Assembly (NCBI GenBank): GCA_012840245.1
Contig: DULR01000083.1
Span: 1 to 64,000 of the forward strand
Source of the DNA: Clostridiaceae bacterium
Lineage (GTDB): Bacteria; Bacillota; Clostridia; DSM-8532
Length of the DNA stretch: 64,000 nucleotides
Direction: 5' to 3'
Part shown: positions 1-54,796 of the stretch, in pieces
How the letters are laid out: each line of letters starts with the position of its first letter
Position numbering within the stretch: position 1 is the first letter of the stretch
Notes under the pieces: generated by a model
The model's input: only the letters and a program-made list of their open reading frames with translations
Told to the model about the DNA's origin: nothing
Databases searched by the model: none
Translations under genes and position numbers: made by a program

Positions 1-267
1 ATCACTTTAAGCACATAAAGATTTGCCCTTTTCTCCACTTTATTCTGCTGTCAAGGTACAGATTACCAATTCGTTACACTTTTGTAATCTCAAATCGCTG
101 TTTTCATAACTTTTTTGACACTACCTCGAAAAACTTGCACAAACTCTCACTGGCAACTTATGTATTGATAACATAAATTAGATCTGAGCTTGAGTAATTT
201 TAGAAGTATTATATCAGATATATTACCTTGAATCAATTTTTTATACATTAAACTCAAAAATACCATG
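1..267. other. AT-rich intergenic edge, no gene seen
   Basis: This stretch lies downstream of the histidine kinase gene and runs to the window edge. It is AT-rich, with stop codons in all frames. I see no convincing hairpin followed by a T-run and no RNA gene in it. Confidence 0.5.
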
Positions 268-11661: not shown

Positions 11662-11688
11662 GAGTTTAGGGGACGGAGACTTTGACTC
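11662..11688. repeat. REP element, single unit
   Basis: GAGT (11662-11665) and ACTC (11685-11688) flank a loop with GGGGACGGAGAC. It belongs to the GGGACGG repeat family of this window and lies 30 bp from the 3' end of the GH5 gene. Confidence 0.7.
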
Positions 11689-19405: not shown

Positions 19406-19477
19406 TGAGTATAGGGGACGGAGACTTTTACTCATTTTCTCGAAAAATGAGTAAAAGCCTCCGTCCCTTTTACTCAT
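19406..19477. repeat. inverted REP pair forming a long hairpin; likely bidirectional terminator
   Basis: GGGACGGAG and CTTTTACTCATTTT (19415-19438) pair with AAAATGAGTAAAAG and CTCCGTCCC (19444-19467), with one A-C mismatch, and TTTT follows. It lies between the convergent GAF gene and DUF951 gene and supplies the DUF951 stop codon. Confidence 0.8.
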
Positions 19478-33130: not shown

Positions 33131-33193
33131 GTGTGCATAGGGGACGGTTCTTTCTGCACATTTTGTGCATAGAGGACCGTCCCCTAAACTCAT
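33131..33193. repeat. inverted REP pair
   Basis: TAGGGGACGGT (33138-33148) pairs with ACCGTCCCCTA (33176-33186). An inner TGCACA/TGTGCA stem sits around TTT, and a half-arm ACTCAT follows. It lies 10 nt past the stop codon of the downstream asparaginase gene. Confidence 0.8.
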
Positions 33194-40391: not shown

Positions 40392-40481
40392 TTTACCCCC
40401 TGCTTTCTGCATTTTGAATCATACAAATCAAATTAATTATATCTGATTCAGCCGGAAGTTGCCATGCTGCCGGACAAAAAA

Positions 40482-40553
40482 TATGACAAGAGGACCGGGT
40501 TCTAAGTAACCTCCTGTTACTCATGACCAGTCCCCTTGTCACTTGCTGCTTAT
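40482..40553. repeat. REP-like inverted repeat, divergent variant
   Basis: TGACAAGAGGACCGG and CCAGTCCCCTTGTCA form the outer arms, with AGTAAC/GTTACT inside. It follows the pattern of the GGGACGG family but has a changed core (GGACTGG). It lies between the ypeB end and the FAH gene. Confidence 0.6.
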
Positions 40554-40571
40554 GCTTGCTGTTATTGATTT

Positions 40572-46834: not shown

Positions 46835-46865
46835 GTGTGTCACTGGGACGGTTCTTCTGACACAC
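46835..46865. repeat. REP element, single unit, in the acpS leader
   Basis: GTGTGTCA (46835-46842) pairs with TGACACAC (46858-46865) around CTGGGACGGTTCTTC. It is the clearest one-unit form with a perfect 8-bp stem. Confidence 0.75.
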
Positions 46866-46924
46866 CTGACATCTAAATAGTAAAAGAGCACAGACTTGAT
46901 TTAAGTCTGTACTCAAAAAGCTGG

Positions 46925-46996
46925 CGTCCCGTATAGGAATCGAACCCATATCAATGGAACCGGAATCCATCGTCTTATCCATTAGACTAACGGGAC
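46925..46996 (-). tRNA. tRNA-Arg (anticodon CCG)
   Basis: A full cloverleaf reads on the minus strand: acceptor GTCCCGT with ACGGGAC, D-arm GTCTAATGGATAAGAC, anticodon stem ATGGA/TCCAT around loop TTCCGGT (anticodon CCG), T-arm GGGTTCGATTCC, discriminator G. CCA is encoded just after (46924-46922). Confidence 0.95.
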
Positions 46997-47051
46997 AAAA
47001 ATCTTGAGTATCCGCACAATATATTATACCACGTTTTTTTCACAATTAAAA

Positions 47052-47112
47052 GTGTGCATCGGGGACGGTCCTCTTTGCACATTTTGTGCACCAGGGACAG
47101 TCCTGATTTCTC
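47052..47112. repeat. inverted REP pair downstream of the RAYT gene
   Basis: GTGCATCGGGGACGGTCC and GGGACAGTCC form the outer parts, with TGCACA/TGTGCA around TTT inside. About 70 bp from the 3' end of the transposase gene. Confidence 0.8.
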
Positions 47113-47184
47113 GTTTTCTTTCCATTATTCTATGATGATTTATCAAATAAAGTGTATGTTTGAGACTATTCTTGATATCTATAT

Positions 47185-47943
47185 TCATGCGCGTTGAATT
47201 ATACTCCTGCTTAATCCAGTAACTTCCATAATTTGCTTCTGACTCACGCCAGGCAAGGCTTTTAAGTCCCTGATGAGTTTATTTCTGTCAGGTTTTTTCA
47301 TTTTTAAAATATCAACCGCTGTTTTTCCCGCAAGAACCTGGATTATCAACTCTTTTGCATGACCATCTGTAATTCTGATATCAGCTTCTATATCAATCAT
47401 GCTGATATTGTCATAATCACGATGAAAATCTTTGAACTGCTTCAATCCCGCTGCCATGTCCAGCACTAATTCTGTATCAGCAATTCCTCTTGCAGATTCT
47501 TCTGGATTTATGTATTCATTATAACTTGACCATGGATAATCGCAACAGTCCAGTACAATCCCCGCCTTAACGGGATTTTGATGGACATACCTCACTGCAG
47601 TCAGCAGATATGAATCTGCATTAACCGGCTCGCTTCGAAAACGTCCTTGAAACAAATGCCCCACACGATTATATTTTTTGTTATACCAATAGGCATATGC
47701 TGTTCCCAATCTTTTCATCGTCTGACTGATGGATTCCTGCCCTTCAGCAATCAGTAAATGAACATGATTGCTCATCAGACAATAGGCATACACCTTGCAT
47801 TTGCTGTGATCTTTTGCGGTCCTGAGCTTTTTCAGGAATATGATCCTGTCTTCTTTATCCTGAAAGATATCCTGTTTGTTGATCCCTCTTACCATAACAT
47901 GGTATACACCTGAAGAGCTTTTTTTACGGGGTGTTCTTGGCAT
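47185..47943 (-). mobile_element. REP-associated tyrosine transposase (RAYT, Y1/IS200-like)
   Basis: Protein of 252 residues with a Y1 transposase domain: YHVMVRGINKQDIF at the start, the metal-binding HxH in LMSNHVHLLI, and the catalytic Tyr region TAVRYVHQNPVKAG. The C-terminal part ends in a helix-turn-helix (VSQKQIMEVTGLSRSIIQR). The start is ATG 47943, 7 nt after GAGGT. Inverted GGGACGG REP pairs lie on both sides (47052-47112 and 48140-48196), the usual layout of a RAYT with its REPs. RAYTs recognise folded single-stranded REP DNA and are thought to spread it. The ORF looks intact, so the REPs here may still be mobile. Confidence 0.9.
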
Positions 47944-48139
47944 ATAGATTACCTCTGAAAATAACATTTTGTTTTAGTATACCATAATATTTAGCCCTGC
48001 ATCCATATTATTGTAATAAATTAATATAAATCCAGACGCACTGTTTGCTTAACAAAAGCAAAGTATAAATTTTGCTGGGATTTTAAAGGGTATTAAACAG
48101 GTACAAGAAAATACATCTTTAATCGGTCACCGTGAATAA

Positions 48140-48196
48140 AGGATTGTCCCCTATGCGCAAAATGTGCATGAAGGACCGTCCCCTATACTCATTTTA
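48140..48196. repeat. inverted REP pair upstream of the RAYT gene
   Basis: GGATTGTCCCC and GGACCGTCCCCT arms with TGCGCA/TGTGCA inside; the last arm ACTCATTTT carries the stop codon of the neighbouring membrane protein gene (48189-48191). Confidence 0.8.
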
Positions 48197-53159: not shown

Positions 53160-53188
53160 TGAGTAAAAGTGTCCGTCCCCAAAACTCA
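53160..53188. repeat. REP element, single unit
   Basis: TGAGT (53160-53164) and ACTCA (53184-53188) around AAAAGTGTCCGTCCCCAAA; the reverse-oriented core of the GGGACGG family. Confidence 0.75.
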
Positions 53189-53261: not shown

Positions 53262-53290
53262 TGAGTAAAAGTCTCCGTCCCCAAAACTCA
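53262..53290. repeat. REP element overlapping the mgsA stop codon
   Basis: TGAGT (53262-53266) and ACTCA (53286-53290) around AAAAGTCTCCGTCCCCAAA. On the minus strand the TGA at 53290-53288 is the mgsA stop. Confidence 0.8.
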
Positions 53291-53995: not shown

Positions 53996-54796
53996 TTATG
54001 CCGGCTTTATGCCAAAAAGCTTTTTCATTTTCGCTAAAAATCCGTCGGAATTGTTGAGGTTGATAAAAGGAACATCTTCTCCCAAAATCCGCCTTGTGAT
54101 ATTGCGATAAGCTTGTCCGGCAATCGATTTGCTGTCATTCACTGCAGGCTCGCCTCTGTTCGTTGATATGATTATGTTCTCGTCATCGGGTACAACACCT
54201 ATAAGGCCTATCGCCAGTATATCGATGATATCCTCAATGGACATCATGTCGCCGCGTTTTACCATATCGGGACGGACACGGTTTACTATGAGCTGAGGAT
54301 TCCTGATCTCATTGGCCTCCAGAAGACCTATGATTCTGTCGGCATCGCGGACAGCCGATACTTCAGGCGTTGTTACTACGAATGCCCTGTCAGCCCCAGC
54401 GATTGCATTTTTGAATCCCTGTTCGATACCGGCAGGACAATCTATGATGATATAATCATATTCTTTCTTTAATTCTTCACACAAATCCACCATTTGATGC
54501 GGTGCCACCGCGTTTTTATCGCGGGTCTGGGGTGCGGGCAGCAAATAAAGCCCTTCAAAGCGTTTATCCTTTATAAGTGCCTGTTTCAGACGGCACTGGC
54601 CTTCTATGACATCAACAAGGTCGTACACGATCCTGTTTTCAAGTCCCATAACTACGTCAAGGTTTCTAAGCCCTATATCAGTATCGATCAGTACAACTTT
54701 TTTACCCTGCAAGGCAATACCTGTTCCGAGATTTGCTGTCGTCGTGGTTTTACCGACTCCGCCCTTACCGGACGTTATAACTATAACCTCACCCAT
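53996..54796 (-). CDS. minD: septum site-determining ATPase MinD
   Basis: Deviant Walker-A ATPase of about 266 residues: ITSGKGGVGKTTTTANLG, switch IDTDIGLRNLDVVMG, and DCPAGIEQGF. The C-terminal amphipathic helix FLAKMKKLFGIKPA binds membrane. The start is set at 54796 (MGEVIV...) by family convention; an upstream ATG at 54823 would add nine residues. Confidence 0.95.
   Translation of the reverse strand: MGEVIVITSGKGGVGKTTTTANLGTGIALQGKKVVLIDTDIGLRNLDVVMGLENRIVYDLVDVIEGQCRLKQALIKDKRFEGLYLLPAPQTRDKNAVAPHQMVDLCEELKKEYDYIIIDCPAGIEQGFKNAIAGADRAFVVTTPEVSAVRDADRIIGLLEANEIRNPQLIVNRVRPDMVKRGDMMSIEDIIDILAIGLIGVVPDDENIIISTNRGEPAVNDSKSIAGQAYRNITRRILGEDVPFINLNNSDGFLAKMKKLFGIKPA

Follow-up and report, generated by a model that had tools for sequence, protein, structure and literature searches.

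TIRYTs or TIRtrons, described in 2013 (Di Nocera et al., PMC3733652), are Y1 RAYT-like genes that lie between inverted repeats containing a GGGGWSAS motif, and different TIRYT genes have different repeat families (PMC3733652). Most TIRYT genes belong to subclass 2.1 (equivalent to RAYT group 1), which has a C-terminal HTH (PMC6006769). In their 2018 survey, Quentin et al. (PMC6006769) saw no REP-like sequences in the neighbourhood of subclass 2.1 genes and were doubtful about target recognition by the HTH. In the text of PMC3733652 we found no arm-protein rule, no division of the repeat into arms and core, and neither Firmicutes nor Clostridia.

In this article, we analyze a RAYT locus in a 64,000-nucleotide stretch of DNA from a Clostridiaceae bacterium (contig DULR01000083.1, hereafter the window), which lies on C69 of a 2.9-Mb draft genome, G000. 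The system is of a known kind, namely TIRYTs with repeats that have already been described. It shares with the TIRYTs inverted repeats that are not GTAG REPs, repeat families located elsewhere and often arranged as dimers or clusters, and a GGGG-rich motif; the exact motif is GGGGWSAS there and GGGGACGG (fitting at 7 of 8 positions) or, in other copies, GGGGACAG here. The Y---NP signature and the C-terminal HTH-like domain are common to subclass 2.1 and the window RAYT but, in contrast to the subclass 2.1 survey (PMC6006769), we find many such genes flanked by units that can form hairpins and that covary with the HTH. The E. coli RAYT/REP system (PDB entry 4er8) is similar in its HUH/Y1 fold, its many short intergenic palindromes and its one gene per repeat family. 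It differs in having a GTAG foot, whereas no GTAG or GTGG foot was found on the window units inspected (subclass 2.1 is not defined by such a foot), and in that here the arms vary between RAYTs while the central core is conserved. Moreover, the 4er8 chain has 165 aa compared to 260 aa in the window RAYT, where the extra C-terminal part carries the HTH. The TnpA proteins of IS200/IS605 (IS608, ISDra2) have the same HUH/Y1 catalytic core, but they work with guide sequences and with hairpins in a subterminal position and lack an HTH reader at the C-terminus; in addition, the window RAYT is single-copy and greatly outnumbered by the repeats. CGTC, which appears when the core is read as its reverse complement, also marks the CGTC-tagged REPs (PMC3733652), probably by coincidence. 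Derivation from those REPs as the parent family was considered and is not supported; their CGTC is an unpaired end tag and no transposase was found for them, in contrast to the central position of the motif and the RAYT in the window genome.

Within the literature that could be searched, the HTH-matched arm types, the division of labour between arms and core, and the abundance of the system in Bacillota appear to be new. Among the papers listed by a text search on the core sequence, none was on bacterial repeats, and an earlier notice may exist in the RAYT-group literature.

The RAYT gene and the repeat units in the window

The repeat units are short palindromes of 27-31 bp with inverted arms of 5-9 bp. 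Those beside the RAYT gene consist of an arm, 2-4 bases, the core GGGACGGTYCY, another 2-4 bases and the complementary arm, and they have opposite orientations on the two sides of the gene. The features are as follows, where G007 denotes a sister species of the same genus.

47185..47967, minus strand: intact RAYT / Y1-HUH transposase gene, 260 aa (open reading frame call and PF01797)
47188..47253, minus strand: predicted C-terminal HTH, residues 239-260 (AlphaFold2 helices, HTH_23 in relatives, arm covariation)
47053..47081, plus strand: RAYT 3'-flanking unit with arms of the cognate type, TGTGCA-tcg-GGGACGGTCCT-ctt-TGCACA
47085..47104, plus strand: tandem half unit lacking the right arm, TGTGCA-cca-GGGACAGTCCT
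48163..48191, minus strand: RAYT 5'-flanking unit TGAGTA-tag-GGGACGGTCCT-tca-TGCACA, with the G007 type in its outer arm and the new type in its inner arm
48140..48162, minus strand: degenerate tandem half unit (TGCGCAtagGGGACAATCCT)
46835..46865, plus strand: TTGTCA-family unit with arms GTGTGTCA/TGACACAC, not of the RAYT-flanking type; core absent at the orthologous site in G007
33132..33193: inverted unit pair, TGTGCA/TGCACA (plus strand, core 33141-33151) and TGAGT/TGCACA hybrid (minus strand, core 33173-33183)
11662..11688, plus strand: TGAGT-family unit, core GGGACGGAGAC
19407..19433 (plus strand) and 19449..19475 (minus strand): inverted pair of TGAGT-family units
53161..53187, minus strand: TGAGT-family unit
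53263..53289, minus strand: TGAGT-family unit

The original prediction of an intact RAYT gene is upheld by an unbroken reading frame at 47185-47967 and a match to PF01797 (Y1_Tnp) at 58.7 bits (cut-off 23, E = 7.9e-16). The HUH motif is H68-V-H70 and the catalytic tyrosine is Y127, located within R126-Y-V-H-Q-N-P132, which corresponds to the Y---NP signature; both motifs are invariant in relatives. The AlphaFold2 model has a mean pLDDT of 90 and its top PDB match is 4er8, the E. coli RAYT bound to REP (Z = 18.1 over 161 residues). A profile match to the solved RAYT has E = 2e-7, and the NCBIfam model REP_Tyr_transpos scores 79.2 bits against a curated cut-off of 80. The model contains a three-helix C-terminal HTH (residues 225-236, 243-250 and 254-259), with residues 252-260 (LSRSIIQRA) as the recognition helix, and HTH_23 matches occur in 11 of 40 relatives. 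A fold search with the C-terminal domain alone gave no significant match, the weak ones including the HTH regulators LsrR and FapR (Z = 3.0, 40 residues). We class the protein as an HUH/Y1 RAYT of the kind known as TIRYT, group 1 or subclass 2.1.

The window is 89% coding, yet almost every unit in it lies between genes. GGGACGG occurs 11 times in the window compared to 4.7 expected, a count reached or exceeded in 1 of 100 shuffles. One of these occurrences, at 54269, was discarded as a family member; it lies within an open reading frame, lacks real arms and looks like a chance match. The three kinds of arm pair that had been claimed are all present, as TGAGT/ACTCA, TGTGCA/TGCACA and GTGTGTCA/TGACACAC, and GGGACGG with complementary arms was located at 11662, 19407/19449, 33132/33173, 46835, 47053, 53161 and 53263 but not at 48163-48191, where TGAGTA faces TGCACA. 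The notion of a RAYT flanked by inverted REPs holds for 47053-47104 and 48140-48191 but not for 46835, which has the other arm type (TTGTCA family). The core, described as fixed, is so in GGGACGG but not in its 3' half, for which the TGAGT units have GGGACGGAGAC, AGGC or ACAC. The divergent unit placed at 40482 has no GGGACGG core and instead reads GGGACTGGTC; this sequence lies inside a larger divergent palindrome at 40470-40555 with TGACAAG/CTTGTCA ends. We also note that the two hybrid units, at 33173-33193 and 48163-48191, combine one TGAGT arm with one TGCACA arm, as if captured in the middle of a change of arm type.

An orthologous RAYT is found in G007 at the same locus, beside the same tRNA and the same acyl-carrier-synthase-like reading frame. 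Both of its flanking units have TGAGTA arms, with TGAGTA/TACTCA in the counterpart of 47053-47081. The window RAYT, by contrast, is followed by a unit with TGTGCA in both arms and preceded by one in which TGAGTA is the outer and TGCACA the inner arm. This half-converted upstream unit suggests TGAGTA as the older state. The two proteins differ within residues 239-260 only by E248K and S255N, compared to 62 differing positions outside this segment, which makes these two substitutions the simplest, but not the only, candidates for the cause of the change in the arms. Differences in presence, looked for as a sign of movement in a comparison of one genome per species, were seen only between species: the RAYT is missing from the tRNA/gene junction in seven congeners, and the unit at 46835 is missing in G007. 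The intergenic sequence at these empty sites is too diverged for the exact ends of the element to be read.

Repeats and RAYTs across genomes

GGGACGGTYCY occurs 100 times in the 2.9-Mb genome compared to 11 times for the reversed control pattern, and the TGAGT-armed family, in which the 3' half of the core is GGGACGGAGAC, AGGC or ACAC, has 86 copies genome-wide and no control matches. The arm types in this genome are TTGTCA, TGTGCA, TGAGT, GCACA/ACACA and AACC(A), and TGTGCA is the type that lies beside its sole intact RAYT.

Pairing of the arms was assessed at GGGAC sites that were selected by core or by RAYT, never by their arms, and the null expectation was obtained by dealing the right arms among the sites. 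Arms pairing at 5 or more of 6 positions were found at 67 of 308 sites in the window genome, far above the approximately 10 found after partner shuffling, which bears out the predicted genome-wide complementarity; in other genomes the corresponding numbers are 327 of 1298 and approximately 23. All four base pairs are found at the inner arm positions across genomes. Mismatched arm positions include 39 G.T and 55 A.C, so there is no preference for wobble pairs and hence no sign of selection for folding alone. An inner hairpin, GGGA-CGG-TYCY, is present in most units; as a universal feature it was rejected, being missing from the 86-copy TGAGT family and from the GGGACAGG and GGGACGGGGTT types. 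In the commonest register the arm centres are about 21 bp apart, a spacing that, speculatively, would allow a dimer to bind the duplex from one side. An unusual array at locus L015 (166-264, G000:C10) has five GGGACGGTTCT cores in a row, spaced by 22 bp with TTTAAACCATG in between.

A unit with core and arms was found at the expected place and in the expected orientation at 137 of 219 RAYT loci (on both sides in 81), and the upstream and downstream arms of a locus agree at 5.9 positions compared to 2.7 with shuffled partners. No recognized unit was found at the other 82 of the 219 loci, some of which may use other cores. In genomes with one RAYT, the arm type of that RAYT also predominates among the repeats: CACA in 28 of 29 repeats in G025 and GACA in 34 of 38 in G043. 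In G007, the GAGTA arm of its own RAYT is present in both arms of 22 of 32 repeats and in one arm of 9 more. The median number of cores is 16.5 in RAYT-bearing genomes and 2 in other genomes (p = 2e-6), with no difference for the control pattern. Two genomes, G003 and G064, have 86 and 25 cores and no RAYT match at E = 0.001; their repeats may have outlived the enzyme, or the RAYT may have diverged.

Arms, core and the two domains of the RAYT

Among 98 non-redundant RAYTs, the protein column with the strongest mutual information with arm bases is R254, with Z of 12.6, 14.4 and 8.1 at arm positions -5, -6 and -7, respectively, followed by Q258, Q243, S253, S255 and R259, all of which belong to the HTH. 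A scan of 232 nine-residue windows, in which nothing was chosen from the data, places the best arm-predicting windows at 247-260, and window 252-260 ranks first when the RAYTs compared share less than 55% identity in the HUH domain. HUH window 83-91 nearly equals the helix in one such scan. At the same identity limit, nearest-neighbour prediction from six HTH residues recovers the arms at 0.58 compared to a baseline of 0.34; these columns were picked from the same data, while 200 random sets of six variable columns reached at most 0.416.

The association can be expressed as simple rules. Among 123 RAYTs, K254 goes with GACA arms in 24 of 29 cases (4 of 94 among the others), N253-R254 with GTCA arms in 11 of 12 (0 of 111), and F254 with CACA arms in 10 of 11 (0 of 112); the positives for K and NR include 11 and 10 RAYTs, respectively, that are mutually less than 60% identical in HUH. 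At later loci, K254 was paired with GACA in 9 of 11 cases compared to 0 of 14, and N253-R254 with GTCA in 5 of 5 compared to 0 of 20; the rule was coded after these loci had been seen, although the first set of loci had already brought the motifs to notice. A hold-out of 40 unseen loci, with the rule fixed beforehand and a fixed register, failed (helix 0.414, HUH 0.409, baseline 0.348, p = 0.21), owing to an arm-core distance that varies by about one base between RAYT groups. In a post hoc rescoring of the hold-out, which granted every comparator one base of slack, the score was 0.696 for helix 252-260 compared to a baseline of 0.533 (p = 2e-4) and to 0.606 for the nearest HUH neighbour (p = 0.05). 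The margin of the helix over the nearest HUH neighbour is thin (p from 0.05 to 0.24), and phylogenetically independent pairs are only suggestive of the helix-arm link (best p = 1.3e-4 among 1488 tests). Taken together, these comparisons suggest that the recognition helix of the HTH decides which repeat arms a RAYT recognizes. Consequently, each arm looks like a sequence-specific site.

The variable 3' half of the core follows a different part of the protein. Its type tracks a helix of the HUH domain, being predicted by HUH residues 81-92, with values up to 0.88, but not by helix 252-260 (0.31, rank 100 of 232 windows), and one arm type can be found with up to three core types. The covariation of arms with the HTH and of the core with HUH thus amounts to a double dissociation, qualified by a link to clades as well among the rarer cores.

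Models of recognition and RAYT relics

We consider it probable that the repeats form a REP-like system run by a RAYT of the subclass 2.1 kind, with a two-part address in which arm recognition falls to the HTH and core recognition to the HUH domain. The HTH would dock on the arm duplex, provided either by the two arms in double-stranded DNA or by the stem of an extruded hairpin, which could equally present the helix with a duplex, and this docking would choose the repeat family. The HUH/Y1 domain would then nick and join single-stranded DNA in or beside the GGGAC core, on the GGGAC strand, and the units would be moved in the way in which E. coli TnpAREP is thought to move its REPs. A few substitutions in the helix might re-address the RAYT to a new arm sequence and leave the old family behind as fossils. 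Such re-addressing would explain why the window genome, with a single intact RAYT, has about five arm families. For the broader proposition, that subclass 2.1 RAYTs have a residue-to-base arm code in the HTH (K254 for GACA, N253-R254 for GTCA, F254 for CACA), that a helix of HUH reads the core, and that mutation of the HTH gives birth to new REP families with the old ones persisting as fossils, our confidence is only slightly better than even.

The main competing explanation is that of a classical REP, where HUH recognizes a folded single-stranded hairpin, the arms drift with compensation, and the match to the HTH reflects shared descent. The arms do covary (score 0.684 compared to 0.191 for shuffled partners, in units selected for paired arms), either strand folds better than shuffled sequence, the 3' half of the core is mostly C or T opposite GGG, allowing G-C or G.T pairs on the GGGAC strand, and an HUH window nearly ties with the helix in one scan. 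Set against this, the same helix residues recur with the same arm type in RAYTs less than 60% identical in HUH, helix windows outrank HUH windows, one arm type occurs with differing cores and HUH types, the preference for wobble pairs is absent in the arms, and specific arm words (GACA, GTCA, AGCA) are not expected from drift. We regard the classical model as improbable. The original prediction that joint change of both arms is strong evidence for hairpin recognition survives in one half: the arms are compensatory around a fixed core, but they follow the HTH helix and thus do not prove folding.

HTH domains are common in repressors, and the units lie within tens to a few hundred bases of the RAYT gene on both sides, as they might if the HTH read the arms in order to regulate transcription of its own gene and the dispersed repeats were by-products or binding decoys. 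However, units also occur downstream of the gene, there are about 100 copies elsewhere, the arms are largely the same in genomes with one RAYT, and repeat copy number tracks the presence of RAYT; we rate self-regulation as somewhat less probable still than the classical model. Transcription terminators or RNA elements, with the RAYT being incidental, would account for the near absence of units from coding sequence in a window that is mostly coding. This explanation is very improbable in view of the RAYT-specific arms at both flanks, the higher counts in RAYT-bearing genomes, and the tandem and inverted arrays.

The two-part address, if true, would account for the switch of a RAYT to another, new repeat family and for genomes in which few RAYTs stand against several repeat families. 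It would also provide an HUH enzyme with a target arm that is predictable from a short helix. A partner repeat and a concrete role of the HTH would be assigned to many genes of the second largest subclass in the survey of Quentin et al. (2018).

Two relics bear on the arm families that have no intact RAYT in the window genome. The truncated RAYT at L002 (62-583, G000:C89) has lost the HUH half but retains RYVHNNP and the HTH helix ISRETVRK, and a TTGTCA unit overlaps its 3' end. At L003 (1471-1602, G000:C34), 34 residues nearly identical to the L088 RAYT are in frame with an unrelated reading frame; we dismissed this match as a second RAYT gene, since it is a relic inside another reading frame. 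The sole unit near the L088 RAYT has AACC-type arms and a degenerate core. At least two other arm families would accordingly have a RAYT fossil, the assignment of the C89 and C34 relics to the TTGTCA and AACC-type families being suggestive.

A further core variant occurs within the same genus in G005, which has 36 TGAGTA-armed units with the core GGGACGTACAC or GGGACGGAGGT, while the arms at its RAYT locus are of the AAGCA type. Finally, L198 and L199, from Prevotellaceae / Prevotella MAGs labelled as Bacteroidota, contain a RAYT and the same core with GATCA arms, which suggests inter-phylum transfer or a binning error.
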